From Cylindrospermum stagnale PCC 7417 (lineage in GTDB: Bacteria; Cyanobacteriota; Cyanobacteriia; Cyanobacteriales; Nostocaceae), in contig NC_019757.1 in the NCBI RefSeq assembly GCF_000317535.1, positions 1,649,001 through 1,713,000 on the forward strand: DNA of 64,000 nucleotides, read 5' to 3'. A model generated the notes under the pieces. It worked only from the letters and a program-made list of their open reading frames with translations, was not told the DNA's origin and did no database searches. Shown piece after piece: positions 6,902 to 27,658 of this stretch (position 1 is its first letter; every line of letters starts with the position of its first letter). Both the position numbers and the translations under genes were made by a program.

Positions 6902-7082
6902 CGATCCTAAATAAGATGTGTATCCCTTCGGGAGCCGTAGGCATCACATCTCTTTTTTATCTTCCTCTGCGACGGCAGTCGCTACAACTCTTGGAACCCC
7001 CGCAACGCGCTGCCTCCTCTCTGCGTCTCTGCGGTAATGCCGACCGCTCCCGAAGGGATACACAACTCAAATAGGATTGCTA
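6899..7082. mobile_element. MITE, TA-flanked family, copy 2
   Basis: This is the reverse complement of 2456-2687, nearly identical but without the 48-bp nested insert. The ends are TAGCGATCCTA and TAGGATTGCTA with a TA duplication outside each (6897-6898, 7083-7084). It inserted at the extreme 3' end of pyrF-pyrE and contributes its stop codon. It has no open reading frame of its own. Confidence 0.85.
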
Positions 7083-7121
7083 TATAAATACAACAAATTG
7101 CCCAGAATTTCGCTTTTCTAA

Positions 7122-7149
7122 GTTGAGACGTTGCATGGAACGTCTCAAC
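7122..7149. repeat. Palindrome GTTGAGACGTTGC/GAACGTCTCAAC, copy 1
   Basis: A near-perfect 28-bp palindrome (GAGACGTT and AACGTCTC arms around GCATGG). The same core recurs at 36639-36666. It lies between the MITE and the permease gene and could form a hairpin in RNA, but no T-run follows it. Confidence 0.6.
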
Positions 7150-7214
7150 AGTGTGGTCTATTCAAGTAGTTTGCAGTAGCTGCAACTTCCAGTTTTTAGG
7201 TAATTTTAAAATTG

Positions 7215-8315
7215 ATGATTATGAATTTGTCTCTCAATCAACTACTTAAATGGTTAATTTTTACGCTGCTATTTCCGCTAATCTTTCTTAATGTTTGGCT
7301 AGTATTTAAGTTTTTTAAATATTTTCAGCCATTAGTGACAATTTTTGTCTTAGCGACTTTGTTTGCCTTCATTTTAAACTATCCGGCTTCTCTTCTCCAG
7401 AAACGAGGACTTAAACGCAACTATGCAGTGGCGTTAGTTTTTATATTAGCATTGCTGATTTTAGTCGCGGTGGGTATCACGTTGCTACCCGTTGCGTTAG
7501 AGCAATTTAATGAAATGGCTAAACTCTTTCCCCAATGGGTTGATTCTAGTGAGGAAAAACTCCAGAGTTTGAATGATTTGGTTTTTGACCAGAAATTAAG
7601 AGTTAATTTAAGCCAGTTATTAACTAATATCATTAACCGCTTACCTGATGAATTAGAGCATTTGGGAAATCAAATCTTCAGCATTGTTGTAGATACTATT
7701 GATAGTATTTCTGAGGCATTAATTACAGTAGTACTAACTTTTTATCTATTATTAGATGGTGAGAGACTTTCAGAGTCAATACTGAAAAAATTACCATTAA
7801 ATTTTGGTCAGTTTTTGAGAAATTCTCTTCAGCAAAATTTCCAGAATTATTTGATTGGTCAGGTAAGTTTGGCTTTGCTGATGGGACTTTCGGAAACGTT
7901 GATGTTTTTAGTTTTTCGAGTTCAGTTTGGTTTATTGTTTGGTTTAGGGGTTGGGCTTTTGAGCTTAATTCCTTTTGGTGATGTTGTTAGTTTGGTTATC
8001 ATAATTTTAATTATAGCTTCCCATGACTTTTGGTTAGCAGTGAAGATTTTTGCGGTAGCTATTGTTATTGACCAGTTAATTGATCAGGCGATCGCACCGC
8101 GTCTTTTAGGTAAGTTTACGGGAATTAGACCAATATGGGTAATAATTTCTTTACTTGTCGGCACTTATATCGCCGGGGTGTTGGGTTTGCTAATAGCAGT
8201 ACCAGTGGCGGGTTTAATCAAAGATGCGATTGACGCTTTATCTAGTGATATTGATCACGCTGTTGAGGGTGAAGGTGTAGCAGAAATGTTAACTGAGGAG
8301 TCAGCAACGCAGTGA
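7215..8315 (+). CDS. AI-2E family transporter (PerM-type permease)
   Basis: A 366-residue membrane protein. Hydrophobic helices lie at about residues 10-30, 35-52 and 65-90, followed by a soluble amphipathic region (about 95-150) and then five more helices. This is the arrangement of the AI-2E exporter/PerM family. The C-terminal GIRPIWVIISLLVG and GVLGLLIAVPVAGL are family signatures. Transported substrates vary widely (autoinducer-2, Na+/H+, unknown), so no substrate is assigned. The ATGs at 7215 and 7221 are both possible starts. Confidence 0.85.
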   Translation: MIMNLSLNQLLKWLIFTLLFPLIFLNVWLVFKFFKYFQPLVTIFVLATLFAFILNYPASLLQKRGLKRNYAVALVFILALLILVAVGITLLPVALEQFNEMAKLFPQWVDSSEEKLQSLNDLVFDQKLRVNLSQLLTNIINRLPDELEHLGNQIFSIVVDTIDSISEALITVVLTFYLLLDGERLSESILKKLPLNFGQFLRNSLQQNFQNYLIGQVSLALLMGLSETLMFLVFRVQFGLLFGLGVGLLSLIPFGDVVSLVIIILIIASHDFWLAVKIFAVAIVIDQLIDQAIAPRLLGKFTGIRPIWVIISLLVGTYIAGVLGLLIAVPVAGLIKDAIDALSSDIDHAVEGEGVAEMLTEESATQ

Positions 8316-8319
8316 ATTG

Positions 8320-8355
8320 GCGCGATCGCTTCGAGCGGGCGCTCCGCGCGATCGC
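8320..8355. repeat. HIP1-ended palindrome
   Basis: Two GCGCGATCGC blocks, each containing the HIP1 octamer, face each other around GAGCG/CGCTC arms to make a near-perfect 36-bp palindrome just after the permease stop codon. HIP1 is abundant in cyanobacterial genomes; here the placement would allow a strong hairpin in the 3' UTR. Confidence 0.6.
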
Positions 8356-8426
8356 TTTGCGTCATCGCCTTTCTAGCTTTGGTATAAAATGTGAAAGCTT
8401 CCTAGTTCAGTGAAAATACGACGAAT

Positions 8427-9074
8427 ATGCCGAAAGCTGGTGATGGCGTTAGAAAAATGGCTTTGAAGCGCCGAACTGGGGCTGTATTACAGTTTAGTGC
8501 AGCTGGCGGTTTTGTGATTATTCCGCTTTTGCTACCTATTCCCCCAGGATTAAAACTCTTGGTTTGGCTTGGCTGCTTGGTTTGTGCAGCTTTCCTTTAC
8601 CAGCAAGGAAAGCATTTATGGATGCGAGCAAATCTAGCCACACAAGGGGCTGTAGGGGAAGAAAAAGTTGCCGAAACTTTAAAACCTCTGGAAAGTCAAG
8701 GTTGGAAGATTGAATATAACATCCCCCTAAAGCCCTGGGGTGATGCTGATGTGTTTCTGCATTCCCCTAAAGGTAATTACTTTGTCATCGATACCAAGAG
8801 TCAAAGAGGAGGAGTATTTTTTGATGGTTCTGTACTAAAGCAACGCTTCGGTAAGAAAGTTCACGAATTTAGGGGTGGAAAAGACTTATTGAAAGTTGTC
8901 GCAGGTCAAGCTGCCACTCTTAGAGATGTGAAACGGGTTAAATCTGTGCAGCCTATTCTGTGTTTTACACAAGCAAACTTAGAGGGAATTAAACAAAATC
9001 AAGATATTAATGGTGTGTATGTAGTAACTTCAGCAAAGTTAGTGAGTTTGTTAAAACAACTAGATAGAAATTAA
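8427..9074 (+). CDS. NERD domain (nuclease-related) membrane-anchored protein
   Basis: The 215-residue protein has two adjoining hydrophobic segments (about residues 18-35 and 38-58) and then a NERD domain. The domain reads GAVGEEKVAETL, GWKIEYNIPL, WGDADVFLHSP and FVIDTKSQRG, the last two giving the acidic and DxK residues of the restriction-endonuclease-like core. NERD proteins are predicted nucleases or DNA-binding proteins, often near helicases and signalling modules. No partner is adjacent here apart from the broken ATPase/DUF3226 pair downstream on the other strand. Biological role unknown. Confidence 0.8.
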   Translation: MPKAGDGVRKMALKRRTGAVLQFSAAGGFVIIPLLLPIPPGLKLLVWLGCLVCAAFLYQQGKHLWMRANLATQGAVGEEKVAETLKPLESQGWKIEYNIPLKPWGDADVFLHSPKGNYFVIDTKSQRGGVFFDGSVLKQRFGKKVHEFRGGKDLLKVVAGQAATLRDVKRVKSVQPILCFTQANLEGIKQNQDINGVYVVTSAKLVSLLKQLDRN

Positions 9075-9098
9075 TGCACAAATAACTAGAAATATAAT

Positions 9099-9956
9099 TT
9101 ACAAAGCTTGTAAAAATAACTTTAAACCATCAAAAGCCGGACTATCCCAGTTAAAATAACCCGCTTGTGCTGCTTCTCCTAAACGCTTATCTGGCGCAAT
9201 TTGTGACGCTAGCCAAACGCGTAAACGTGCTTTTGCTATATCTTTATTTTTCGGTTCTCTCCCTACTGTGGAATAAACACATTTAAAGTAATCATCTACA
9301 CATTGTATAGCTCGGTCTGTTGTCACTGCTTTTAAACAGACATCTTCTAGCATTCCATTATTTTGATAATCTGGCAAAATCAAAACGCTGACTTGGGGAC
9401 TTTCTCCAATAATTTGTTTGGGGCGATTTGGTATAGGTAATTTCCCAGTGTTTAAAAAGCCGCAGACACTATCAAATGCATTTATGGCTGAATCATCGGC
9501 ATCCCGTGTAATACCTAGAGAAACTACTTCATTATAACTAGGTCGCAAATGTAGTGTTTTCAAATAATTTCCAAGTCCCTGTTTACCTCCATAATTTTCT
9601 ACCTAAATATCAGAGGATGTCTGAGAAGTTGTTAGTGATAAATCAAACACTGGTAGATCCCCCTAAATCCACGCCAGTCGCTCATGGGGAGCCACTGCGT
9701 TGGACGGGTTTCCCTGCTTAAAGCAAGTGGCGTGGAGACCCCCAAGACCGCGCTGGCTCCCCTTTTTAAGGGGGACTTTGACTCTTGTTCCCCCCGGAAG
9801 GGGGGTTAGGGGGGATCTCGATCAATTTTGATACTTTTCAGACATCCTCTCAGTAATGTTAAGATGATTTAGAAATGCATTGAAAAATAAGACTTCTTCT
9901 GAACCTTCACCAATAAGTAGTTTTGGCTTGGAGAGTTGCTGCGATTTGCTAGACAT
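9099..9956 (-). pseudogene. DUF3226 (Toprim/OLD-like) protein, split by MITE
   Basis: The gene began at an ATG (9954-9956) that shares one base with the stop of the ATPase upstream, giving a TGATG translational-coupling junction. The first 34 codons (KPKLLIGEGSEEVLFF) are typical of the acidic start of Toprim-like DUF3226 proteins. The frame is then interrupted by the element at 9613-9849 and resumes downstream (ENYGGKQGLGNYLK, TRDADDS with the acidic pair, DGLKLFLQAL). Removing the element and one TCA duplication restores the frame, except for one TAG (9602-9604) where a CAG would fit. A 154-aa C-terminal fragment from an ATG at 9563 could still be translated. Confidence 0.82.
9613..9849. 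mobile_element. TNA-flanked MITE family, complete copy B
   Basis: The element has ends GAGGATGTCTGAGAAGT and ACTTTTCAGACATCCTC and a 3-bp TCA duplication (9610-9612 and 9850-9852). Its interior holds G/C blocks (CCCCTAAATCC, AAGGGGGACTTTG) shared with copies C and D but no coding capacity. It splits the DUF3226 gene. A GAG terminus with a TNA duplication is reminiscent of the IS1031 group of the IS5 family, which I infer as the possible source of transposase. Confidence 0.88.
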
Positions 9957-11020
9957 CAGCGAATCTCCCAGTCCAATTCTTCTGAGGTCTCTAAAGCTTC
10001 TTGGTCATAAGTAATGGCTTTAATTTCATCTTTTACTCTATCAAGTCGATGATAGCGAAAATCATATTTATCACTATTTTTAAATGCTTCGTGCGCTGCT
10101 ATGATGCACTCTCGACTGTGGGTAGTGGCAAAGATTTGTACATCTGCTCTTCTAGCAGCATCAGCGATTGCTTTCCAGACATTTGTTAAAACTGAGTGAT
10201 GTAAACCATTTTCAATTTCATCAATTAAAACAGTTCCACCTTTAGCATTAGCTATTGCTAAGACGATTGATAGTAAGCGTCCTATTCCTTCTCCCATTAA
10301 TGGTAATGGTACAAGCTGAGACACACCAATATCACCGTATATTATTGCTTCACTATCTACTAACACAGTAAGACGTTTCAAGCGTGGTTCTAATAAGCGT
10401 AGAGTTTGTAAAACTGCTTCTTGTTGCCCAACACGTTCCAGGTTACTAAAGCGCACAGTATCTTCTTTAGAAGAGCGGATATTAGTAGTTAAATAGATGC
10501 CTAGAGGAAATTTTTCTTTTCTAGAACGAGTACCAATTAATTTACCGTCGGCTGTTAGAGAGATGCGTGATGCACTTTTTTTATTTATTTGATATTCCAA
10601 TACTAAGGTGTTATGTGGTTTAAACTCGGTTGTTAGTGATGCGTTAGATTGCAAATCCTCAAAATCTTCAAATAGTGATAGTTGTTTTTTTGATTCATTT
10701 AAATAAATTTCCAGGAATCGTTCTATTTGATTATTTTCAATACCACTTAGTTTAATAATATTATCAATCATTTCTTGTCCAAAGAAAAATCCTCTCATTT
10801 CTTCCATATCTTCAAATCTACCACTCTTTCCTATACCTCGTAGACGATTAATTTGTAATAATGATTCAGGATTATTTGGGTTGATAAAAATAAAAATGGC
10901 TTCTAAAAGTGAAGTTTTACCAACATTATTTTTGCCACCAATTAAGTTGATTCTTTCCAGTGGTTCAATGGTAAAGTTCTGGAAGCAACGAAAGTTTTTG
11001 AGTGTTAATGAGCGCAACAT
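9956..11020 (-). CDS. AAA-family ATPase (RecF/SMC-like, AAA_15/21)
   Basis: The 354-residue protein begins LRSLTLKNFRCFQNFTIEPL, the standard start of RecF/OLD-type ATPases, followed by a P-loop (GGKNNVGKTSLLEAI). The signature region GEGIGRLLSIVLAIANAKGG, Walker B (GTVLIDEIENGLH) and the switch His (IFATTHSREC) are all present. ATPases of this type paired with a Toprim/DUF3226 partner resemble a split OLD nuclease, a layout often found in phage-defence islands; that role is inferred. The partner gene overlaps its stop codon and is inactivated, so this ATPase is probably an orphan now. Confidence 0.85.
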   Translation of the reverse strand: MLRSLTLKNFRCFQNFTIEPLERINLIGGKNNVGKTSLLEAIFIFINPNNPESLLQINRLRGIGKSGRFEDMEEMRGFFFGQEMIDNIIKLSGIENNQIERFLEIYLNESKKQLSLFEDFEDLQSNASLTTEFKPHNTLVLEYQINKKSASRISLTADGKLIGTRSRKEKFPLGIYLTTNIRSSKEDTVRFSNLERVGQQEAVLQTLRLLEPRLKRLTVLVDSEAIIYGDIGVSQLVPLPLMGEGIGRLLSIVLAIANAKGGTVLIDEIENGLHHSVLTNVWKAIADAARRADVQIFATTHSRECIIAAHEAFKNSDKYDFRYHRLDRVKDEIKAITYDQEALETSEELDWEIR

Positions 11021-11111
11021 AGCTTAATTAATTGCCTCAGCATTGTTGAAGCTTCTTACTCCTATAATTTTATCTTCTTTTATGTCAATTATTTGACTAT
11101 CATGCTACATA

Positions 11112-11140
11112 AAAAAATCCCCTGGCATTTCTACCAGGGG
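11112..11140 (-). terminator. Rho-independent terminator of clpC
   Basis: On the minus strand a perfect 7-bp stem (CCCCTGG/CCAGGGG) with loop TAGAAATG is followed by ATTTTTTT, about 40 bp after the clpC stop codon. Confidence 0.85.
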
Positions 11141-11178
11141 GAAATATTTACTTTAATAACAGTGATGAGGTCTAAATA

Positions 11179-13632
11179 TTAGCCAACACTTGCTAATAAA
11201 AACTCGCGTGTTTCTGGCTTGGTTACTCTTACCTGTCCGTCATCATCAATATCGACAATGGCGGTGTCTCCATCGGCGATTTGACCAGACAGTAGTGCTT
11301 CGGCGAGAGAATCTTCTAACAGGCGCATAATTGCCCGACGTAACGGCCTAGCGCCGTAGCTGGGGTTGTAGCCTTCTTGTACTACACGCTCTTTGAAGCG
11401 ATCGCTAACTTCTAGTTTAATTCCCCTTTCAGTCAAGCGGCCAGCCACATCGAGCAGCATAATTTCAGCAATTTGCTTGACTTCATCCTTACCCAACTGA
11501 GTAAAGACGATAATCTCATCTAAACGATTCAGGAACTCAGGACGGAAGTAAGCTTTCAATTCCTCATTGACTAAGGTGCGAATGCGGTTGTAACTAGCTT
11601 CTGATTGATTGTCGGCGAACTCAAAGCCTAAACCACTACCGCCTTTTTCAATCACCTTAGAACCGATGTTAGATGTCAAAATGATCAGCGTGTTCTTGAA
11701 GTCCACTTTCCGACCTTTGGCGTCGGTGAGTTGACCATCATCCAAGATTTGCAGCAACATATTGAATACATCGGGGTGCGCTTTTTCGATTTCGTCGAAT
11801 AGCAGCACTGAGTATGGTTTGCGCCGCACAGCTTCTGTTAGTTGCCCGCCATCGTCGTAGCCAACGTAACCAGGTGGAGAACCAATCAGCTTGGAAACGG
11901 TGTGGCTTTCCATGAATTCCGACATATCTAGGCGAATCATCGCTTCTTCGGAACCGAAGAAATATGCAGCTAATGCCTTCGCCAATTCAGTTTTACCAAC
12001 TCCGGTGGGGCCAGAGAAGATAAAGCTAGCAATTGGGCGATTGGGATTTTTTAGCCCGACACGTGCGCGACGAATGGCGCGAGAAACAGATGTAACTGCT
12101 TGTTCTTGACCGATGAGGCGTTGGTGAAGCGTGTCTTCTAGGTGTAATAGCAACTCTGATTCAGATTCCGTCAGTTTGTTAACTGGTACTCCTGTCCAAG
12201 AAGCGACAATTTGGGCGATGTCTTCTTCGCCAACGATGGGGATCGTAACAGTTTTATCGGTTTCTGATTCGGCGTGCAGTTGTGTTTGCAGTTCCAATTC
12301 TTGGCCGCGTAACTTGACAGCTTTGCCAAAGTCTTGGACTCTAATGGCGTCCTCTTTGGATTTGGTAACGCTGATTAGTTCGCGCTTGAGTTCTTTATTG
12401 GTGGAAGAGCGAGAGTTTCGCAAATGCACACGAGAGCCAGCTTCGTCAATTAAGTCGATGGCTTTATCTGGCAAAAAGCGATCGCTAATATAACGCTCTG
12501 ACAACTCTGCTGCTGCCAAAATTGCCGCATCAGAAATATGCACTTTGTGGTGCTGTTCATAAGCACTGCGTAAGCCGTAGAGAATTTGGACAGTTTCCTC
12601 AATCGAGGGTTCACCTACCAAAATCGGTTGGAAACGCCGCTCTAAAGCAGCATCGCGCTCAATGTGCTGACGATATTCCTTGAGGGTGGTAGCACCAATG
12701 CACTGGAGTTCACCCCGTGCTAAGGCTGGCTTGAGGATGTTAGCTGCATCCAAACCGCCTTCTGTACCACCAGCGCCAACTAAGGTATGTACTTCGTCAA
12801 TTACCAGGATGATATTGCCCACAGAGCGAATTTCATCCATGATTTTCTTTAGGCGTTCTTCAAAGTCGCCGCGAAAGCGAGTCCCAGATACCAGAGATCC
12901 CATATCCAGACTAATAACTTGCTTGTTGAGCAAAATCTCTGGAGCATCTTGGTTAACAATACGTTGAGCGATACCTTCTGCGATCGCTGTTTTACCAACT
13001 CCCGGTTCCCCAATCAACACTGGGTTATTCTTAGTCCGTCGACCCAGAATTTGAATGGTACGCTCAATTTCCTTTCCACGACCAACTACGGGGTCGAGTT
13101 TGCCTTCTTGTGCTAGTTTGGTGAGATTTCTGCCAAACTCCTCTATAGTTAGTTTTTGGTTACGCTTTTGACTATTACCACCAACGAATACAGAGGCATC
13201 ATCACCCAAACGACGCATTACCGCAGTGCGGACAGCCTTTAGGTCAACCCCCAGATTTTGCAGTACTTTAGCGGCGACTCCCTCGCCCGCTTCAGTTAAC
13301 CCCAATAATAAGTGTTCCGTGTTTATGTAGTTGTGTCCAAGGCTATGAGCTTCTCTAAACGATTGCTCGAACAAGCTTTTAACCTTGGGAGTAAAGGGAA
13401 TTTCTGGCGGGACAAAGCCAGATCCTCGACCAATAATTTTTTCTACTTCGCGACGTGCATCTTTGAGGGTAACGCCCAACTCGGTCAGCACCTTAGCAGC
13501 AACCCCTGTTCCTTCTCCCATCAACCCTAGGAGAATTTGTTCCGTTCCTACAAAATTGTGTCCCAGTCGGCGTGCTTCCTCCTGGGCTAGCATAATTACT
13601 CTAATGGCTTCGGAAGTGAAGTGTTCAAACAT
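11179..13632 (-). CDS. clpC: ClpC, Clp protease ATP-binding (Hsp100) subunit
   Basis: The 817-residue protein has the full ClpC order: two N-terminal Clp repeats ([20 protein letters not shown], then NTEHLLLG), AAA1 with Walker [14 protein letters not shown] and Walker [16 protein letters not shown], a UVR-type middle helix region, and AAA2 with [14 protein letters not shown] and [13 protein letters not shown]. The LGFEF segment near residue 680 is the P-loop that docks to ClpP. ClpC unfolds substrates for ClpP. In cyanobacteria it is essential in known cases and is linked to turnover of phycobilisomes and stress-damaged proteins. A clear terminator follows. Confidence 0.97.
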
Positions 13633-17954: not shown

Positions 17955-18644
17955 CTATCTTTTTCTATTGTTTGTCCGAACAGGTTTAGAATTATTTGGA
18001 CAAGTACAATTACCGTTATTGCTACCAGTTGTACCTGTTGATGTCTTAGATTGAGATGTGATAGTACCGATATTAGCAATAGTTATTCTTTTTTTTGATT
18101 TGGCAGCAGATTTAATAGGATCTCTATAACCCAAATCGAGAGCAGCTAATTCATTAACTGGTTCTGGTATATCAAAACTGAATGTTATTTTGGTTGGAAT
18201 TCCAGAAGAAAAATCATGTTTAATATTTCTTACATAATCACCATTAGTTATATAAGTTCCCATTTGTATAACTGTGGCAGCATATACAGTACCAGAGGAA
18301 TCGATAGCATTTGTAAATGGTCCTTGAGTAGTTGTGTTTGAAGCTTCAAATGAAAGGACTGCGGGTGTATTTCCTATATTCGTGATCAAAACATCGCAAG
18401 ATACTTTTTTATTGTTAATTCTCCGACAACCACGGGATTCAAATTTAAGATTGTATTCTTCATCAATCGATTGAGCGATTAATAATTTGTCTGATGATTT
18501 TTGTGTGATATCTGGTGTTACAGGAATAGCTAATGCAGTGGTAGATGTCACACCACAAGAAATTGTGATAGTTGCAGTGATGAAGTTCCTCAATAAAGAT
18601 TTTGACAACAGATTCTTACTAAAGTTGTGTAACTTTAAGCTCAT
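17955..18644 (-). CDS. Hypothetical secreted protein
   Basis: The 229-residue protein has an N-terminal signal-type helix (NFITATITISCGVTSTTALA). The mature domain is beta-rich and looks like an immunoglobulin-type fold (LKFESRGCRRINNKKVSC, DVLITNIGNTPAVLSF). The tail is low-complexity and Ser/Thr/Gly/Asn-rich with two late Cys (CTCPNN) and a basic end. I do not recognise a family. It is divergent from the sigma-DUF1822-CHAT run; a shared regulatory region is possible but unproven. Confidence 0.55.
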   Translation of the reverse strand: MSLKLHNFSKNLLSKSLLRNFITATITISCGVTSTTALAIPVTPDITQKSSDKLLIAQSIDEEYNLKFESRGCRRINNKKVSCDVLITNIGNTPAVLSFEASNTTTQGPFTNAIDSSGTVYAATVIQMGTYITNGDYVRNIKHDFSSGIPTKITFSFDIPEPVNELAALDLGYRDPIKSAAKSKKRITIANIGTITSQSKTSTGTTGSNNGNCTCPNNSKPVRTNNRKR

Positions 18645-18833: not shown

Positions 18834-19481
18834 ATGAATAATTTTCATGAAGTACTCAAGAAACTGATTATCGATGCTTGTCGTCATCCTCCCAAAAGCT
18901 GGGAACGTCAGGAAGCTTTAACGCAAATCATTCGCTTGGTGATGCAGTCTGGTAAATTGTGGCAGGAGAACACACCGTATTATGAAGATGCACAGCAACA
19001 AATGTGGTTGTATTTTTGCCGTAATGTTTGCGAAGCGACTACGACGGAACAACCCTATGACCCTACGCGCAGTAGTTTGGTGACTTGGCTAGATAATTAC
19101 CTGAAAAGACGTCTGCAAGATTTTTGGATAGAGGAACAGGTTGAGAAAACTAGAACGGTTCCCCGGTTTACAGTAGAGGGGAAAACAACTGACCCTTTAG
19201 CAAATATCCCTGCACCCTCACTGCATTCACCCCTGGACATTCTCGAAGCGACCAAGAAGTGGGTAAATACAGACTCAAATGGTGAGTTACGGCGAATTCA
19301 TCTCAAAGGACATCCACAGGTAACTTGTCAGATGCTGCTGTGGCGACGTTTACCACCACGTACTCCCTGGAAAGACCTTTCTGCTGAGTTTGGTTTACCC
19401 ATTTCCACCTTAGATAGTTTTTATCGTCGCCAGTGTTTACCTCGGTTGAGGAAATTTGGTGAATTTGAGGGATATCTTTAG
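18834..19481 (+). CDS. Sigma-70-like protein heading a CHAT/CHASE2 gene cluster
   Basis: The 215-residue protein (ATG 18834; a TTG at 18795 would add 13 residues) resembles a minimal sigma-70 factor. A region-2-like helix pair reads SLVTWLDNYLKRRLQDFWIE, and a C-terminal helix-turn-helix reads PWKDLSAEFGLPISTLDSFY. The linker is short and there is no region 1.1 or 3. It lies 21 bp before DUF1822 and starts the tight five-gene run ending at 26677, so it may regulate its own operon or respond to the membrane sensor. Function inferred from fold and context only. Confidence 0.7.
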   Translation: MNNFHEVLKKLIIDACRHPPKSWERQEALTQIIRLVMQSGKLWQENTPYYEDAQQQMWLYFCRNVCEATTTEQPYDPTRSSLVTWLDNYLKRRLQDFWIEEQVEKTRTVPRFTVEGKTTDPLANIPAPSLHSPLDILEATKKWVNTDSNGELRRIHLKGHPQVTCQMLLWRRLPPRTPWKDLSAEFGLPISTLDSFYRRQCLPRLRKFGEFEGYL

Positions 19482-19502
19482 GGAGTAAAAATCCAAAAAA
19501 TT

Positions 19503-20447
19503 ATGACTTATAACAATATAGTAGATAGTCCCTTACCTTTACCAATTAGCCAGCAGACGAAACTGATAGCACAGCAGCTAGCCGACCAACTAACAGTAAT
19601 TGCTGTGGATGAACGAGTTTATCTAAATACTCTAGCGGTGTTGGTAGTGAATGATTACCTACAAATGATGGGTTTTGCAACTGACCTCGGAGGAAGTGAA
19701 ACTTTTAACTCGCTGCTGCATTTTGCTGCCGATGTGTCAGATTTAAAAGTTACTGGACTTGGACATTTAGAATGTCGGGCTGTTACCCCAGGGGAATTTT
19801 CTTGCTATATTCCAGAGGATGTTTGGCAAGATAGGATTGGCTATGTAGTAGTGGAAATAGCTAAATCCCAGCGCTTGGCATTGCTTCTAGGGTTTACCCA
19901 ATCAGTAACAGAGGCATCGTTACCCTTAAAACAATTACAACCACCAGAGTTTTTATTACGGCATTTGCATCAATTAGTGCAAGCCTTAGATAGTGTAAAT
20001 ACTGTAGTTATCAGCCAGTGGTTTGAAAATCTGTTTGTGGCTGGTTGGCAGAATCTAGAGGCGCTTTTCGCTGGAGACACTCTGAATTTAGCTTTGAGTC
20101 TGAGAAGCGATACTGCACCTGAGAGGGAAGTTGTTGGGGCAAAATTGATTGATTGGGGTGTTGAATTGGGGGGAGAAGCGGTGACGTTGTTGGTGGCGTT
20201 GACTGGGACAACAGATGAGCAAGTAGGAGTCAGGGTACAAGTGCGCCCTGTACCAGGAACATCCTATTTACCGCCAAATCTAGTTCTGGCTATTTGCTCA
20301 CCAACGGGGGAAACACTGAAGGAAGTATGCTCCCGCAGTCTTGATGATTACATTCAATTGCCTCGGTTTCAAGGTGTTCGTGGCGATCGCTTTCAACTAC
20401 GATTAACTCTTAATCAGGTAAGCTTTACAGAAGACTTGGCGATCTAA
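19503..20447 (+). CDS. DUF1822 family protein
   Basis: The 314-residue soluble protein starts LPISQQTKLIAQQLADQL and continues YLNTLAVLVVNDYLQMMGF, the signature of the DUF1822 family. The C-terminal half is beta-rich (VGVRVQVRPVPG, LPPNLVLAICSPTGE, FQLRLTLNQ). DUF1822 is found next to sigma-like and CHASE2/CHAT genes in filamentous cyanobacteria. Its biochemical role is unknown; an adaptor between sigma factor and CHAT protein is one guess. It is separated by 4 bp from the next gene. Confidence 0.75.
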   Translation: MTYNNIVDSPLPLPISQQTKLIAQQLADQLTVIAVDERVYLNTLAVLVVNDYLQMMGFATDLGGSETFNSLLHFAADVSDLKVTGLGHLECRAVTPGEFSCYIPEDVWQDRIGYVVVEIAKSQRLALLLGFTQSVTEASLPLKQLQPPEFLLRHLHQLVQALDSVNTVVISQWFENLFVAGWQNLEALFAGDTLNLALSLRSDTAPEREVVGAKLIDWGVELGGEAVTLLVALTGTTDEQVGVRVQVRPVPGTSYLPPNLVLAICSPTGETLKEVCSRSLDDYIQLPRFQGVRGDRFQLRLTLNQVSFTEDLAI

Positions 20448-20451
20448 ACAG

Positions 20452-22713
20452 ATGGGTCATCAAGTCGTCTTAAAATTCGGTCGCGGTTCCTGGCAGCAGG
20501 GGCTTCCGGCTATTACCGCTCAAATTGGCAGGGATGGCGAACCGCATCAAATCCAAGTTACTGCCAGTTTACCACCAGCCTTTGATTTGCCGGAACTTTA
20601 TCGCAATTGGCAGGTGTTGTATTTAGCGCTTTATGACCGTTTGGGGTGGCGATTTCGCATCACCTTTGACGACACCCAAGCAACGGTCACAAATTTTTCC
20701 TCTGCTGATTTTCATACAGTTTGTCAGCAGTTACGCAGTCGGTTTAATGTCTGGTTGAATTCCCCAGAGTTTCGCCCCGTTTACCAAAAGTTATGGCAAA
20801 CCTTGAGCCAAGATAGTTCAATTCGCCTACTAATTGAAACCAATAACCCTGAATTACGGCAATTTCCTTGGCATCTGTGGGACTTTTTTCAGGATTATCC
20901 ACGGGCGGAATTTGCTTTAAGCAATCCTAACCATGAGCTAATTCCGGTTAATTCCCGCCATAGTTCTAGTGAAGTCAGAATTTTGGCTGTTTTTGGCAAT
21001 AACCAAGGGCTGGATTTGCAACAAGACCAAGCCTTGTTAGAAAATTTACCCAATGCTAAACTGACATTTCTCTCAGAACCATCGCGGCAAAGCATCAGTG
21101 ACCAGATGTGGCGTTATAGTTGGGACATCTTCTTTTTCGCTGGTCATAGTTCTAGCCAAATGGCAGGGCAAAAGGGGAAAATGTCCTTGGATGGCGATCG
21201 CAATCTGACAATTGGCGATTTAGAAAATGCCCTGCGGCGGGCGATTTCTCAGGGTTTGCAACTAGCAATTTTTAACTCCTGTGAGGGTTTGGGGTTAGTA
21301 AGCGAACTAGAAAATTTAGGCTTGCATATTCCCCAAATTATCATCATGGGAGAAGCTGTGCCAGATAGGGTGGCACAAGGGTTTCTCAGTTATTTTTTAG
21401 AAGCATTAGCGCGGGGTGAATCGTTTTATTTAGCAGTCCGGGAAGCGCGGGAACGCTTGCACAGTCTAGAAGATGAGTTTCCTTGTGCTAGCTGGTTGCC
21501 GGTAATTTGCCAGAACCCCGTCGCTATTCCTCCCACCTGGAACAGTTTACGCCGTATTCATCACCAACCAGGATACAGGGTTTTGTGGGCGAGTGTGGTG
21601 ATGAGTGCCTTGGTTGTGGGGATGCGAAGCCTGGGAGTTTTTCAGGGAACAGAACTACAAACCTTTGACCAAATGCTGCGCTGGCGACCAAATGAAGCAA
21701 CTGACAACCGATTGCTGGTAGTTGGTGCTACAGAGGAAGACATCAATAAATATGGATTTCCGCTTCCAGATGCCATACTGGCACAGACAATTAAGCAGTT
21801 ATATCGGCATCAAGCGCAAGTCATTGGCTTGGATATTTACCGCCACAACCCAGAGAGTGCAGATTTAATCAAGAGGATGCAGAATAGCGATCGCGTGATT
21901 ACCCTATGCAAAGTTAGAGAAGGTGACGAGGGAGACATCCCAGCACCACCAGGAATACCCCTCAAGCGCCAGGGTTTTAGTGATGTGGTAGTAGATCGCG
22001 ATCGCATCGTCCGCCGTCATTTATTGGCCATGACCCCACCACCTTCATCTAAATGTAAAACAGAATACGCCTTCAGTCTCCAACTAGCACTGAAATATTT
22101 AGCAAATCAAGGCATCTCTTCACCACCCACCGAAGTTTTGCAACTTAAAAACAAAGTTTTCCCCAAACTCCAACCCCACACAGGCGGCTACCACCAGCTA
22201 GATACACGGGGTTATCAGATATTACTCAATTACCGTTTTCCCCAAGTTTCCCAGCAAGTCAGCCTTAGCCAAATACTGAATGATCAGCTCGACCCCAACA
22301 GTATAAAAAACCGAGTTATACTGATTGGTGTCACCGCCCCTAGCAGCAGAGATAAATTTTTTACACCATACAACAGTCAAGCCATTTACCAGGAAACCCC
22401 AGGAGTCATTCTCCAAGCACAGATGGTGAGCCAAATACTGAGTGCTGTGATAGACAATCGTCCAATATTTTGGGTTTTATCTCCAACCTGGGAAATCCTC
22501 TGGATAGGCTGCTGGTCTTTGCTAGGGGGAGTTTTAGGGTGGTACTGTCGCTCGTTATTAATTTTAAGTTTAACTATCTCAGTAGCAGCTATTAGTTTAT
22601 ATGGAATCTGCTATGTCCTGTTACTACAAGGTTGCTGGATGCCCTTAGTTCCGTCAGCCTTAGTTGTAATATCTACAGCAACCATCACTTTTTACATCAT
22701 CTCTAAAAAATAA
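20452..22713 (+). CDS. CHAT peptidase-CHASE2 sensor membrane protein
   Basis: The 753-residue protein has an N-terminal cytoplasmic half containing a CHAT (caspase-like) domain with the His in FFFAGHSS (H232) and the Cys in FNSCEG (C277), both catalytic positions intact. A transmembrane helix at about 375-395 follows, then a periplasmic CHASE2 domain (about 400-660, with GLDIYRHNPES and RVILIGVTAPSSRDKFFTP). Three C-terminal helices (about 675-750) close the protein. CHASE2 normally senses external signals for kinases or cyclases; here the output module is a putative protease placed before the sensor. Confidence 0.85.
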   Translation: MGHQVVLKFGRGSWQQGLPAITAQIGRDGEPHQIQVTASLPPAFDLPELYRNWQVLYLALYDRLGWRFRITFDDTQATVTNFSSADFHTVCQQLRSRFNVWLNSPEFRPVYQKLWQTLSQDSSIRLLIETNNPELRQFPWHLWDFFQDYPRAEFALSNPNHELIPVNSRHSSSEVRILAVFGNNQGLDLQQDQALLENLPNAKLTFLSEPSRQSISDQMWRYSWDIFFFAGHSSSQMAGQKGKMSLDGDRNLTIGDLENALRRAISQGLQLAIFNSCEGLGLVSELENLGLHIPQIIIMGEAVPDRVAQGFLSYFLEALARGESFYLAVREARERLHSLEDEFPCASWLPVICQNPVAIPPTWNSLRRIHHQPGYRVLWASVVMSALVVGMRSLGVFQGTELQTFDQMLRWRPNEATDNRLLVVGATEEDINKYGFPLPDAILAQTIKQLYRHQAQVIGLDIYRHNPESADLIKRMQNSDRVITLCKVREGDEGDIPAPPGIPLKRQGFSDVVVDRDRIVRRHLLAMTPPPSSKCKTEYAFSLQLALKYLANQGISSPPTEVLQLKNKVFPKLQPHTGGYHQLDTRGYQILLNYRFPQVSQQVSLSQILNDQLDPNSIKNRVILIGVTAPSSRDKFFTPYNSQAIYQETPGVILQAQMVSQILSAVIDNRPIFWVLSPTWEILWIGCWSLLGGVLGWYCRSLLILSLTISVAAISLYGICYVLLLQGCWMPLVPSALVVISTATITFYIISKK

Positions 22714-23457
22714 ATGCATCATAAATTATTCAATTTCTTCGTTCCTCATCTAAAACTGATAACCCTAACTTCAGCGCTAGTGTTTTCTCAGTTGAGTTTA
22801 CCCCAAATGGCAGCAGCAGAAAACTCATCATCCTTAAATCTAGAAACACAATTCAAACCGCCTAACGACGGCGCACCAGGAGGACGCAAAGGTGGTGGTA
22901 GTAGACCAGGTTGTCCAGCTACAAATCAGCCGATTACAGTATTAGTTCCGGCAGCTAACATCGGCTGGACAACTTCTACTCATCCGACTTTCTGGGTTTA
23001 TATTCCATACCAAGTAACGTCTCCACATCCTGTAGATTTAGTTCTTCGCGATGACACAGGTAAGCAAGTCCACAAAAATACTTTTCAATTCACAGGTAAA
23101 CCAAGAATTATTAGCTACCATTTGCCAGAAACAGCACCAGATATAGAAATAGGTAAACGTTACAGTTTATCAGTTTCTTTCTTTTGTAACCCAGTTAACA
23201 GGTCTGAGGCGAATATAGTTTCCACCTGGGTGAAGCGAGTCGCACTTAGCCCAGAACTGAAGAAGAAGTTGACAGCCGCAACACCAAAGCAGCGGATAAT
23301 TTTGTATGCCGAGAATGGGTTGTGGTTTGATACTTTAACAGCGTTAATTGAACTCCGTCGTCAATCACCTGATGCATCTTTGGATACGGCTTGGGCTGAT
23401 TTATTAAAACATCATTTTGTGCAGTTAAATGAGTTAATTAGTGTGTCCTTGCGGTAA
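22714..23457 (+). CDS. DUF928 domain secreted protein
   Basis: The start codon follows the previous stop directly (TAA ATG). The 247-residue protein has a signal peptide (ALVFSQLSLPQMAAA), a Gly/Arg-rich linker (GGRKGGGSRPGCPA) and a DUF928 domain (PVDLVLRDDTGKQV, TAPDIEIGKRYSLSVSFFCN). The C-terminus is helical (LYAENGLWFDTLTALIELRR). The compartment implied, periplasm or surface, matches the CHASE2 sensor of the gene upstream. Function unknown. Confidence 0.75.
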   Translation: MHHKLFNFFVPHLKLITLTSALVFSQLSLPQMAAAENSSSLNLETQFKPPNDGAPGGRKGGGSRPGCPATNQPITVLVPAANIGWTTSTHPTFWVYIPYQVTSPHPVDLVLRDDTGKQVHKNTFQFTGKPRIISYHLPETAPDIEIGKRYSLSVSFFCNPVNRSEANIVSTWVKRVALSPELKKKLTAATPKQRIILYAENGLWFDTLTALIELRRQSPDASLDTAWADLLKHHFVQLNELISVSLR

Positions 23458-23485
23458 TATTAAAAATAATTTTTATTACAAAAAT

Positions 23486-26400
23486 ATGAAAAATATTATT
23501 CACGTGAAAACAGCTATTGCGATTTCCGCTACCTTATTAAATCTTGTGGGGATTAGTTATCCAATTATCTTACATACTCCCCCAGCACTAGCACAAAATT
23601 CTGGCGAAAAAGACCAGATAGTGGAACAAATGGCTCTAGCAAAAGCACTCTTTGAAGAAGGCGAAGCACTGTTTAAAAAAGCCGATTATGCATCTGCTGT
23701 AGAGGCTCTAGAACCAGCCTTGAAACTCTTGGTAAAACTAGAAAGTTCCAAGGAAGCTCAACAACTCGCTCAATATATGGATTTAGCTTACTTTCCAGAT
23801 AGAATTTGGAAAATTACAATGTTTCTCGGTGTAGCTCATGCAGGATTGGGCAATTACAAAAAGTCCATTGATTATAACCTACTACATTTATTAGTAACTC
23901 CAGCGCTTATAGAAGCGCTCCAAAATTATAGCCCGTATTACAACCCTGAAAATTTTGTAATAAAGATAAGACAAAATGAAGTTGATATAGTGAATCGAAT
24001 AGGACTTAATTATCAATCCTTAGGCAGCTATAAAAAAGCAATTGAACATCATAATATAGCTTTATCTACAGCACAAAAAATCAAATACCCAACAGGAGAA
24101 TTTGATGCTTTCATCCGCTTAAGTAAGGCTTACATTAATCTCAATGATAATACCAAAGCCACTAATTATGCTGAACAAGGTTTAGCCTTAGCAAGACAAA
24201 TAGAAGATCGGGAGGCAGAGGCAGAAGCTCTGGGACAATTCCAAAAAATTTATACTAGCTTGAAAGACTATAATAAAGCAGTAGAATATGGCGAACAAAG
24301 TTTAGCGATCGCACGCCAACTAACAAACTCTATTGACAAGATACATCTTCTCAGAAACATCAGCTATAATTACATATCTTTGGGAAAGAATAGCAAAGCA
24401 ATTGAATACCAGGAGCAGAGCTTTGCGATCGCCACACAGATAGGAGGATATGTAGAGTGTTTATCTCTGGCAAATAAGGGTGATTTTTACCATTCCTTGG
24501 GAGACCATGCTCAAGCTATTGAATATAGTCAAAAAGCTTTGAAAATCGCGCTAGACTTCAGAAATCCACTGTTAGAAGATAAGGCTAATAAAACCCTGGG
24601 TAATACTTACTTTTCTCTAGGAGACTATAAGAAAGCTATTGAATATTACCAAAAAAAATTAGTGGTGGCACAGCAAAGAGGAAACCCAGAAGAGGAAAGT
24701 AGTACTTTGCTAAGTTTAGCGAAGGCTTACTTGGAGTTAAGAAATTATAATCAGGCAATTAAATTGGCTCAACAGAGTTTAGGAATTGCAAAAAAACATA
24801 ACTATCGGGAAAATGAGGAACTTGCTCTCCAGCTTTTAGGAAACACTTATATAGGTTTAGGTGACTTTTCCAAAGCAATTGAGTACCAGCAAAATACTTT
24901 AGCAAATTCTCGTCAATTAAAACAGCCAGACAGAGAATATCTGGCTTTGGAACAATTAGGTGTTATTTATCATGAACAAGGAAACTATAGCAAAGCCATT
25001 GATTACTATCAACAGAGTTTAAACAACCGTAGAAACTCTCAAAAAGTTGATCCAGAGCAATGGAAGATTTTATCAAAGCTAGGTTCTGCGTTTGCTGAAG
25101 CTGGTAATTTTTCCCAGGCTCAAGAAACATTACAAGATAGTGTGAGATCGCTGGAATATGAACGGAGAAGACTAGGAACTAATGATAGTGATAATCTGAC
25201 ATTTTTTGAACAGCAAGTAGATACATACCGAACTTTACAAAAAGTCTTCATCGCCCAAAATCAGCCGCAAGCAGCCTTAGAAATTGCTGAACGAGGACGT
25301 ACCCGTGTATTAGTTGATTTATTAGCAACAAGACTATTCGCTACTCAAGCTACTCCCATAACTCTCAGTCCACCAAGTATTGCCCAAATTCGGCAAATAG
25401 CTCAACAGCAAAATGCTACCTTAGTCGAATATTCAATTATTAATCAATCTTCTGGATTTCGCCAGCAAAAGCAGGCATCTAATCTGTATATTTGGGTCAT
25501 CAAACCTACAGGAGAAGTTATATTTCGGCAAGTTGACCTTAAATCCCTGAAAGCTCCACTCAAAGACCTTGTTAGCCAAACTCGTGAACTGATTAACGAA
25601 GGTAGAGGACGTGGAAAAAACAATAACCTAACTTTATTGCCAGGGAACTTAGTCAAACTTCAAGGTGATGCTGATGATTGGCAACCTTGGGAAATTGTAT
25701 CTACAAATGTATCTGCTCAAACCATAACAATCAAACGACCAGATAATCCCGAAGCGCCGCCAATTATACGTCCAATCAAAGATGTAGTTTCTCAAGTTGA
25801 GTCTCGCCGTAGCAATCACCCCAGCTTACAGCAACTCCATCAATTACTCATCCAACCCATTGCTGATTTACTACCAAATGACCCCAATTCTCGTGTAATT
25901 TTTATTCCTCAAGATGAACTTTTTCTTGTGCCTTTTGCCGCATTGCAAGACGCACAAGGTAACTTTTTAGTTGAAAAACACACCATTCTTACTGCTCCAG
26001 CTATTCAAATTCTTGACTTAACCCGTCAACGGCGTGGACTAAATCGTAAAGACAAAAGTGCTTTAGTGGTTGGTAATCCTACGATGCCAAAAGTATCCCT
26101 TGTGCCAGGGGAACCACCGCAACAATTATCAGCTTTGCCAGAGGCAGAAAAGGAAGCACAGTTAATTGCTCAGATGCTGGGTACTAAAGCGTTGATTGGC
26201 AATCAAGCTACTAAAGCAACAGTGGTATCACAGTTACCAAAGGTAAGCATAATTCATCTAGCTACCCACGGGTTACTAGATGATAGACGCGGCTTAGGAA
26301 GTAGCATTGCTCTCGCTCCTGATGTCGAAAAGCAAGAGGGTAACGGTTTGCTGACTGCTGATGAAATTCTCAATTTACAGTTAAATGCTGAGTTAGTAGT

Positions 26401-26677
26401 CCTCAGTGCTTGTAATACTGGCACTGGGGAAATTACGGGAGATGGGGTGATAGGTTTATCTCGCTCGTTAATTTCTGCGGGTGTTGCCAGTGTGTTGGTG
26501 TCACTGTGGACTGTACCTGATGCGCCCACAGCGTCGTTAATGACTGAATTTTATCGCAATTGGCAGCAGCAACCAGACAAAGCGGCTACGCTGCGTCAAG
26601 CAATGTTGGCAACTATGAAACAGTACCCTCATCCGAGAGATTGGGCTGCTTTCACTATTATTGGCGAGGCGGAATAG
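23486..26677 (+). CDS. TPR-CHAT protein, exported
   Basis: The 1063-residue protein (ATG 23486; the longer frame overlapping the previous gene has no good start) has a signal peptide (about 1-37, ending PPALAQ). About ten TPR units follow through residue 560, with recurring YKKAIEYYQ/ALGDYxKAIE patterns. The C-terminal third is a CHAT domain with His in IHLATHGLL (H928) and Cys in VVLSACNTGTGE (C976), both intact. The signal sequence implies that this protease-like domain works outside the cytoplasm, opposite in topology to the CHAT domain of the CHASE2 protein. Confidence 0.85.
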   Translation: MKNIIHVKTAIAISATLLNLVGISYPIILHTPPALAQNSGEKDQIVEQMALAKALFEEGEALFKKADYASAVEALEPALKLLVKLESSKEAQQLAQYMDLAYFPDRIWKITMFLGVAHAGLGNYKKSIDYNLLHLLVTPALIEALQNYSPYYNPENFVIKIRQNEVDIVNRIGLNYQSLGSYKKAIEHHNIALSTAQKIKYPTGEFDAFIRLSKAYINLNDNTKATNYAEQGLALARQIEDREAEAEALGQFQKIYTSLKDYNKAVEYGEQSLAIARQLTNSIDKIHLLRNISYNYISLGKNSKAIEYQEQSFAIATQIGGYVECLSLANKGDFYHSLGDHAQAIEYSQKALKIALDFRNPLLEDKANKTLGNTYFSLGDYKKAIEYYQKKLVVAQQRGNPEEESSTLLSLAKAYLELRNYNQAIKLAQQSLGIAKKHNYRENEELALQLLGNTYIGLGDFSKAIEYQQNTLANSRQLKQPDREYLALEQLGVIYHEQGNYSKAIDYYQQSLNNRRNSQKVDPEQWKILSKLGSAFAEAGNFSQAQETLQDSVRSLEYERRRLGTNDSDNLTFFEQQVDTYRTLQKVFIAQNQPQAALEIAERGRTRVLVDLLATRLFATQATPITLSPPSIAQIRQIAQQQNATLVEYSIINQSSGFRQQKQASNLYIWVIKPTGEVIFRQVDLKSLKAPLKDLVSQTRELINEGRGRGKNNNLTLLPGNLVKLQGDADDWQPWEIVSTNVSAQTITIKRPDNPEAPPIIRPIKDVVSQVESRRSNHPSLQQLHQLLIQPIADLLPNDPNSRVIFIPQDELFLVPFAALQDAQGNFLVEKHTILTAPAIQILDLTRQRRGLNRKDKSALVVGNPTMPKVSLVPGEPPQQLSALPEAEKEAQLIAQMLGTKALIGNQATKATVVSQLPKVSIIHLATHGLLDDRRGLGSSIALAPDVEKQEGNGLLTADEILNLQLNAELVVLSACNTGTGEITGDGVIGLSRSLISAGVASVLVSLWTVPDAPTASLMTEFYRNWQQQPDKAATLRQAMLATMKQYPHPRDWAAFTIIGEAE

Positions 26678-26737: not shown

Positions 26738-27658
26738 TCACTCACTCATAGACAACACCCAATCACGTAAAAGTGGGTTGACTTTATCGGGTGCTTCATC
26801 ATGGGGACAATGACCCGCTGTGAGGAAATATTCTGTTAATTGGGGATAATATTGGCGAAACTTTTGGGAACGTTCTCTGGCATTTATCCAAGGGTCTGCT
26901 TCTCCCCACAATATTAATAGAGAACAAGTTAATTGCTTGAGTAGCACATCTACTTTTTCTCCTTGGGGACTGCTAAAAACTGAGACAAATACATCTAATG
27001 CACCAGCATCAAAAGCAGGACGAGAAATTTCGTCGATCAATTGCTCTGTAATTGCGCTTTTATCTAGATAAACTTTTTCTAGAGTTTGACGAATTACCCA
27101 GCGCTGGCGCACGTATTGAAATAATATAGTTTGGGCTAAAGGTTGCTGAAAAATCCACTTTACAGAATCACCCAAAAGTTTCTGCAAGGGTTGTTTAGGT
27201 GGCTGAATTTGAGCTTGTAAAGCTTCTGGTTCTGATGTTGGTTGGGTGGTACTAAAGGGGCCTGCACTATTAAGTAATGCTAAACCCGCTACACTGTCGG
27301 GACGTTGAGCTGCAACACACAAGCAAGCGTAGCCACCAAGAGAGTTACCAGCTAATACGGCTTTTTGACCAATCACTTCACTGATAAAATCATTAAGTTG
27401 GTCGCGCCATAAGTCGCCGCCATACTGCAATTTTGGTTTAGCTGAACGACCAAATCCCAAAAGGTCGATGGCATATACTTCAAAATCTGGATACAGTCCT
27501 GTGATATTCTTGCGCCAGTGGTCTGTGGAAGCACCAAAACCATGCACTAACAGCAAGGGTGGACGTTGCGGTTGTTTTTCTCCCGCTTTTACGTAGTAGA
27601 CGTTGTGCCCTCGCCACTGCCAATATTTGCCGGGAATTGGGGCTGTAGTTGCCTGCAT
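26738..27658 (-). CDS. Alpha/beta-fold hydrolase
   Basis: The 306-residue protein has the HGFGAS oxyanion motif, nucleophile elbow AGNSLGGYA, acid in WGEADPW and catalytic His in TAGHCPHDEAPD. In cyanobacteria close relatives with WRGHNVYYVKAGE are annotated only as alpha/beta hydrolases. Plant homologues include chloroplast hydrolases such as pheophytinase, so an ester of a pigment or lipid is a reasonable but unproven substrate. Confidence 0.85.
   Translation of the reverse strand: MQATTAPIPGKYWQWRGHNVYYVKAGEKQPQRPPLLLVHGFGASTDHWRKNITGLYPDFEVYAIDLLGFGRSAKPKLQYGGDLWRDQLNDFISEVIGQKAVLAGNSLGGYACLCVAAQRPDSVAGLALLNSAGPFSTTQPTSEPEALQAQIQPPKQPLQKLLGDSVKWIFQQPLAQTILFQYVRQRWVIRQTLEKVYLDKSAITEQLIDEISRPAFDAGALDVFVSVFSSPQGEKVDVLLKQLTCSLLILWGEADPWINARERSQKFRQYYPQLTEYFLTAGHCPHDEAPDKVNPLLRDWVLSMSE

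Follow-up and report, generated by a model that had tools for sequence, protein, structure and literature searches.

The closest described relatives of the locus analysed here are bacterial systems with a constant N-terminal caspase module and variable C-termini (eLife 2021; PMC8195603). In the sections of that paper that deal with them, CHASE2 is named for the TRADD-N-linked group, an extracytoplasmic function (ECF) sigma factor and DUF1822 are described, as a prediction, as adjoining most TRADD-N-independent versions, DUF1822 is termed a tetratricopeptide repeat (TPR) protein, and the module is suggested to be activated as an autopeptidase (PMC8195603). A second point of comparison is Craspase, in which, according to the excerpts considered, the N-terminal part of Csx30 binds CASP-sigma and the CHAT protease Csx29 docks on and cleaves the C-terminal part (PMC10028731). 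Here we describe five adjacent genes of Cylindrospermum stagnale PCC 7417, located in a 64,000-nucleotide stretch of its 7.6 Mb genome (contig NC_019757.1, positions 1,649,001 to 1,713,000; hereafter the window), which encode an ECF-like sigma factor, a DUF1822 protein, a CHAT-CHASE2 membrane protein, a DUF928 protein and a TPR-CHAT protein (Table 1). Our comparative analysis suggests that they could form a transmembrane-receptor protease system that switches the sigma factor through cleavage of DUF1822, a reading that we regard as a serious candidate although somewhat short of probable, and in which the binding, the cutting, the cut site, the signal and the regulon are what we infer.

The locus shares with the EACC2-caspase/ECF sigma/DUF1822 systems the constant N-terminal module of the caspase superfamily, the highly variable C-terminus and the adjoining sigma factor and DUF1822 genes, and an earlier note on this DNA, which knew of no described pathway with such a composition, is thus corrected by the neighbourhoods described in 2021 (PMC8195603). 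In contrast, the sections cited say nothing of DUF928, the exported TPR-CHAT protein or an anti-sigma role, and the domain that is called a caspase there is assigned by Pfam to CHAT in the window module (PMC8195603). What may be new is therefore evidence on how the system could work, namely the guard role of DUF1822, the link of its second domain and arginine-bearing linker to the protease, and the link between DUF928 and CHASE2. The searches made in the open-licence PMC literature yielded no text that presents DUF1822 as an anti-sigma factor, no tested function for DUF1822 or the CHAT module, and, apart from a single cluster mentioned in a passage of a WD40 paper, no statement of the DUF928-CHASE2 rule.

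Craspase resembles the locus in having a CHAT protease, a sigma factor gene and a two-part sigma inhibitor with the C-terminal part as target, as we propose for DUF1822, but as described in the excerpts it is guided by CRISPR RNA, whereas the window system has a membrane receptor with CHASE2 (PMC10028731). A Pfam scan of 20 window proteins named neither Cas7-11 nor a CRISPR array, no dedicated search having been made for them. Besides, no Csx30-type row occurred among the listed DUF1822 matches, although a missing row excludes nothing; the likeness that we draw between DUF1822 and Csx30 is one of layout. Fusion of a caspase-type protease to CHASE2 is also found in a Trichodesmium metacaspase, listed as one domain combination in a text whose relevant passage gives no sigma factor or DUF1822 context (PMC2853523). 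HetF, a CHAT protein that filamentous cyanobacteria possess and that has a membrane segment according to the excerpts available, was considered as an identity and rejected (18.4 bits against the NCBIfam HetF cut-off of 1200).

Conservation of the core genes and exchange of the sensor

The sigma factor query matched 47 of 60 relatives and DUF1822 matched 56, as well as 84 of 116 genomes sampled across the phylum. The gene-3 module also matched 56 of the 60 relatives, with the best rows spanning residues 1-364 and up to 27 matches in one genome; four of the 56 were matched only at 1e-15 or worse and are perhaps other CHAT proteins. On named contigs, the closest relatives of gene 3 belong to Nostocales-type cyanobacteria such as Rhizonema, Scytonema, Nostoc and Calothrix.

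The assignment of gene 1 relies on its relatives, since the window copy has no Pfam match at 0.1. A profile built from 39 of them and compared with PDB sequences placed ECF sigma factors (SigE/SigK) at the top, although weakly (2q1z, 0.0014; 4nqw, 0.0032), and the region-4 part of 2q1z alone gave no significant match to this profile. A cousin of gene 1 in locus L038 matches Sigma70_r4_2 at 0.0013, under the cut-off of that family, and a longer type of sigma-like gene carries sigma-70 region 4 in 10 of the 12 cases scanned (none in L063 and L110). Upstream of orthologous window-type sigma genes (for example in L068 and L162) we also observed a conserved box around GCAATACTAA-ATATTCTTGC, which is missing before the window copy.

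Loci with duplicate sequences were counted once in the neighbourhood, domain-association, Arg201 and distinct-sequence dyad counts. Downstream of 61 distinct sigma genes, the next gene encodes DUF1822 in 36 and TPR-CHAT in 8, and 86 of 121 distinct modules lie directly after DUF1822 (modules matched over 250 or fewer profile columns were dropped). The C-terminal part of the module is variable, since 81 of the 121 carry CHASE2 and 40 do not; six of the latter were scanned and end in nSTAND1-WD40 (two), pentapeptides (two), AAA_35 (one) or the periplasmic binding domain Peripla_BP_6 (one). These neighbourhood counts, which show that the five genes cluster more than expected by chance, together with the swapped C-termini define the sigma factor, DUF1822 and the CHAT module as the core of the system, with an exchangeable sensor and with DUF928 and TPR-CHAT as accessories found mainly with the CHASE2 version. 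The five genes do not form an invariable set. Among the loci listed, the exact gene order of the window recurs in L129 and L166, and TPR-CHAT stands between the sigma factor and DUF1822 in L049/L060, L068 and L072. L068 is a second five-family cluster of the window genome itself (sigma, TPR-CHAT, DUF1822, CHAT-CHASE2, DUF928), which also harbors a further cluster, L055, with a longer sigma-like gene.

Both catalytic dyads that had been read from the window are conserved. In gene 3, H232 is found in 116 of 117 and C277 in all 117 distinct sequences (119/120 and 120/120 with duplicates), and in gene 5 H928 and C976 are present in 46/46 distinct relatives (47/47 with duplicates). Hydropathy of gene 3 indicates an N-terminal module that reads as cytoplasmic, a hydrophobic segment at about residues 377-396, CHASE2 and further C-terminal hydrophobic segments. 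Since gene 5 begins with a stretch that resembles a signal peptide when read by eye, the placement of the two dyads on opposite sides of the membrane, as the earlier note supposed, is plausible.

Domain structure of DUF1822 and its link to the protease module

The predicted structure of the window DUF1822 protein (predicted local distance difference test, pLDDT, 89.9; predicted template modelling score, pTM, 0.67) has two domains, and residues 191-210 between them form the least confident internal stretch (pLDDT blocks of 66 and 67). The modelled fold is not a TPR fold, contrary to the wording in the cited part of the eLife paper (PMC8195603). The protein has no clear membrane segment, its best 20-residue hydropathy being 1.54, and a value of 1.7 is reached by 6 of 138 DUF1822 open reading frames (ORFs).

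The second domain is associated with the protease. The CHAT module is encoded by the next gene in 90 of 101 distinct DUF1822 proteins that match the profiles of both domains, a count that leans upward as most loci were chosen for the module, and in 11 of 12 loci that were chosen by sigma factor or DUF1822 coordinates and have a next gene, a check that leans less. The module follows none of the 30 distinct proteins that match the N-terminal domain profile only, and two proteins matched the profile of the second domain only. A sigma gene lies just upstream of 67 of the 101 two-domain proteins (36 of the short and 31 of the long type), and 29 of the 30 module-less proteins have a long sigma-like gene in this position, with sigma-70 region 4 in all four scanned (L001, L011, L014 and L029).

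The linker follows the same distribution. Among full-length proteins (127 after ORFs below 280 aa were dropped), residue 201 is arginine in 81 and lysine in 1 of the 87 with the module next, and the segment around Arg201 is a gap in all 30 module-less proteins. Moreover, in locus L120 (4924-6891, + strand) the C-terminal part of DUF1822 is fused to an NB-ARC-like ATPase that takes the place of the N-terminal part, directly before a CHAT-CHASE2 gene and with no adjacent sigma gene; this single case has the layout expected if the N-terminal part pairs with the sigma factor and the C-terminal part with the protease.

The structure model and both domain profiles are based on one alignment (A1), from which the module-less clade was left out. 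Of its 72 rows, 26 appear to be long-type proteins whose N-terminus was trimmed and wrongly aligned, and for this reason A1 was not used for conservation of the N-terminal domain.

An anti-sigma layout in a distant family

A family of the same phylum but another class (f38), which we take to be Gastranaerophilales and presumably non-photosynthetic, accounts for 42 of the 84 phylum genomes with a DUF1822 match, and 25 of these genomes were fetched. In their proteins (L185-L189, L191-L210) the DUF1822 N-terminal domain stands at the start of a chain of about 800-1300 aa; 23 of 25 have a single hydrophobic segment, and the three scanned have a TonB-like C-terminal end (above the cut-off in two, below it in one). 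A sigma gene follows 12-106 nt downstream in 23 of the 25 loci, four of which supplied seeds for the sigma profile and match Sigma70_r4 in Pfam; the other two are L189, at a contig end, and L208, probably a split gene with a 304 aa frame followed by one of 644 aa. All 10 N-termini tested alone scored above the Pfam DUF1822 cut-off, and hhalign aligned the f38 domain with A1 at a probability of 73% (E 3.1e-05). The module profile found nothing in the 25 f38 genomes and gave matches in 4/4 control genomes of the order of the window. In L185, a zinc-ribbon/AAA ATPase-like frame was seen after the DUF1822-headed gene and the sigma gene.

A one-pass membrane protein encoded beside a sigma gene is the classical layout of a membrane anti-sigma factor, as in systems of the RseA/DegS type. 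Because the N-terminal domain heads such a protein next to a sigma gene in f38, DUF1822 looks like a guard of the sigma factor, and the N-terminal domain with the sigma factor is the element common to the module-linked, module-less and f38 arrangements. With RseA/DegS-type systems the f38 proteins share the layout with one transmembrane segment; in the window, by contrast, no clear membrane segment is seen in the guard, and the sensor is fused to the protease.

Accessory genes of the CHASE2 version

DUF928 is encoded downstream (no more than two genes and 600 bp away) of 57 of the 81 CHASE2 modules compared with 0 of the 40 modules that lack CHASE2 (1/81 and 2/40 having no downstream sequence). 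A TPR-CHAT gene lies nearby, from four genes before to five after on either strand, in 40/81 and 3/40, respectively, and on the other strand in 17 of those 40 CHASE2 modules. In the window genome, with 8 DUF928 and 11 CHASE2 domains, coordinates place 6 of the DUF928 domains no more than 1 kb from a CHASE2 domain, and DUF928 also adjoins CHASE2-cyclases (L174, L175) and a TIR-CHASE2 protein (L177).

The best structural alignment of DUF928 was with MtxA of magnetotactic bacteria (VIA-align; 4Z29), for which the excerpts of the report give a signal peptide, an Ig-like and a helical domain and a following CHASE2 gene (PMC4439547). DUF928 is comparable in its secreted look, its Ig-like domain with C-terminal helices and its CHASE2 neighbour, but the partner of MtxA is a CHASE2-adenylate cyclase, unlike the CHAT-CHASE2 partner in the window. 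There was no sequence match between the two proteins, and MtxA was not among the 50 Foldseek rows listed.

The TIR-CHASE2 locus L177 (C2:4517000-4532000 of the window genome) is a variation of its own, with a CHAT-TIR gene (364 aa) adjoining the TIR-CHASE2 gene (588 aa) at 5815-9684 (+) and, after the DUF928 gene, a TPR-CHAT gene on the other strand (9754-12549, -). Its order of outside sensor, membrane and TIR can be likened to a Toll receptor with a CHAT-TIR partner.

Proposed mechanism and alternative explanations

In the mechanism that we propose, CHASE2, with DUF928 and TPR-CHAT as periplasmic partners, would perceive a signal from the envelope or the outside. DUF1822 would be a two-domain anti-sigma factor, the N-terminal domain holding the sigma factor and the Ig-like second domain docking on the CHAT module of gene 3; the cytoplasmic CHAT domain would cut it in the interdomain linker, the best candidate site being after Arg201, and the freed sigma factor would transcribe its regulon. 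Comparison across genomes backs the pairing of the sigma factor with DUF1822, the association of the second domain and the arginine linker with the module, the conservation of both dyads, the exchange of sensors and the CHASE2-DUF928 link. The model of proteolysis coupled to a sigma switch in the earlier note thus gains comparative support from the domain associations and from f38, its binding and cutting steps being still predictions.

Several observations weigh against this mechanism. DUF1822 is not the next gene for 25 of the 61 sigma genes, including the 8 followed by TPR-CHAT and one at a contig end. Foldseek with the DUF1822 model gave no match at 0.001; the structure rows for the N-terminal domain were weak and came from nuclease entries, which we take to belong to a nuclease superfamily, and its fold is unclassified. 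Whole f38 proteins (L185, L186) had no DUF1822 match at 0.1, and the DUF1822 profile built here detects f38 proteins weakly, at 0.0019 at best. The absence of the second domain from the module-less proteins is partly built in, as its profile derives from the mostly module-linked A1, and a diverged equivalent may exist in that clade (hhalign probability 25%). Besides, the module-less proteins are one orthologous clade (best-scoring copy per genome), and the contrasts with this clade and with f38 may each represent one evolutionary event. Arg201 could be structural, and 10 further DUF1822 proteins, which belong to neither group and are not followed by the module, have arginine in 7 and lysine in 2 at this residue. 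In the window copy of gene 3, residue 300 (21349-21351), within the near-invariant MRE motif of the CHAT domain, is glycine in place of the arginine found in 117/117 distinct relatives, which may alter the protease or shift its specificity. Finally, Csx30 is cut within its C-terminal part and not between domains, as stated in the excerpts of the Craspase report (PMC10028731).

One alternative is an autoproteolytic conflict system as proposed in 2021, in which the caspase-type domain would activate itself together with a lethal or counter-invader output, the sigma factor would only express response genes and DUF1822 would be a scaffold. Beyond the autopeptidase activation suggested for this very module in the 2021 text (PMC8195603), it would account for relatives with STAND and WD40 parts and for the CHAT-TIR/TIR-CHASE2 pair of the window genome. 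However, PADLOC matched only gene 5 in the window (TPR, 7.3e-37; C3a156, 0.0007), the DUF1822 model does not have the TPR fold, and DUF1822-sigma pairs occur without the module, so that we consider a conflict system unlikely.

Alternatively, DUF1822 could guard the sigma factor and release it by allostery, through a signal-induced rearrangement or partner switching, while CHAT acts on another substrate. The same genetic links would be expected, and the f38 and module-less pairs must work without the module, but the near-complete retention of the catalytic pair (116-117/117) and the absence of the arginine linker segment from the module-less clade make release without cleavage improbable in our view. 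It is very unlikely that the neighbourhood holds no single pathway and that sigma-DUF1822 merely controls how a separate CHASE2/DUF928/TPR-CHAT unit for envelope proteolysis is expressed, since the tight spacing of 0-28 bp in the window and the module directly after 90/101 two-domain DUF1822 proteins speak against it, in spite of the pairing of DUF928 and CHASE2 with cyclases and of the 17 TPR-CHAT genes on the other strand.

Should cleavage of DUF1822 as a cuttable anti-sigma factor be confirmed, a large unexplained share of cyanobacterial signalling would become testable. Receptor-driven, Craspase-like release of sigma factors would likewise be common outside CRISPR. The DUF928-CHASE2 link also provides a handle on what CHASE2 senses. 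A further reading, conceivable although less likely than not, is that DUF1822 founds an unrecognised anti-sigma family, perhaps pre-dating photosynthetic cyanobacteria if f38 is, as we assume, non-photosynthetic, and that it was captured by a membrane receptor-caspase by way of a docking domain, either added or reshaped, and of an arginine cut site. In that case several receptor-protease-sigma lines would operate side by side in many cyanobacteria, their sensors being interchangeable, as a bacterial equivalent of receptor-caspase signalling with transcription as output.

Genetic organization of the locus

ORF coordinates, Pfam and the sigma profile agree with the earlier description of five same-strand genes of the named families separated by 0-28 bp (21, 4, 0 and 28 bp in order), all of which start with ATG. 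Promoter-like matches were at chance level (17, where shuffled sequences gave 18.0 on average), so a single mRNA, as the operon-like layout would imply, is suggested by the close spacing only.

Table 1. Positions in the window of the five genes and of the putative cut site
Feature	Coordinates	Strand	Description	Evidence
Gene 1	18834..19481	+	215 aa ECF-like sigma factor, regions 2 and 4	Weak profile match; no Pfam match
Gene 2	19503..20447	+	314 aa DUF1822, N-terminal domain and Ig-like second domain (~208-314)	Pfam 8.2e-66
DUF1822 linker with Arg201, residues 191-210	20073..20132	+	Arg201 codon 20103-20105	Putative cut site
Gene 3	20452..22713	+	753 aa; CHAT-bearing constant module 1-365 (H232/C277), then CHASE2 385-694	Pfam (CHASE2 3.7e-67, CHAT 2.6e-12)
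Gene 4	22714..23457	+	247 aa secreted-looking DUF928; Ig-like domain and C-terminal helices	Pfam 1.5e-57
Gene 5	23486..26677	+	1063 aa exported-looking TPR-CHAT (H928/C976)	Pfam (TPRs; CHAT 3.8e-73)

The set is flanked upstream by an opposite-strand ORF (17955-18644) at a distance of 189 bp and downstream by a convergent gene (26738-27658). Elsewhere in the window, an AAA_15/AAA_21 ATPase gene adjoins a Clp ATPase gene (9956-13632, - strand).

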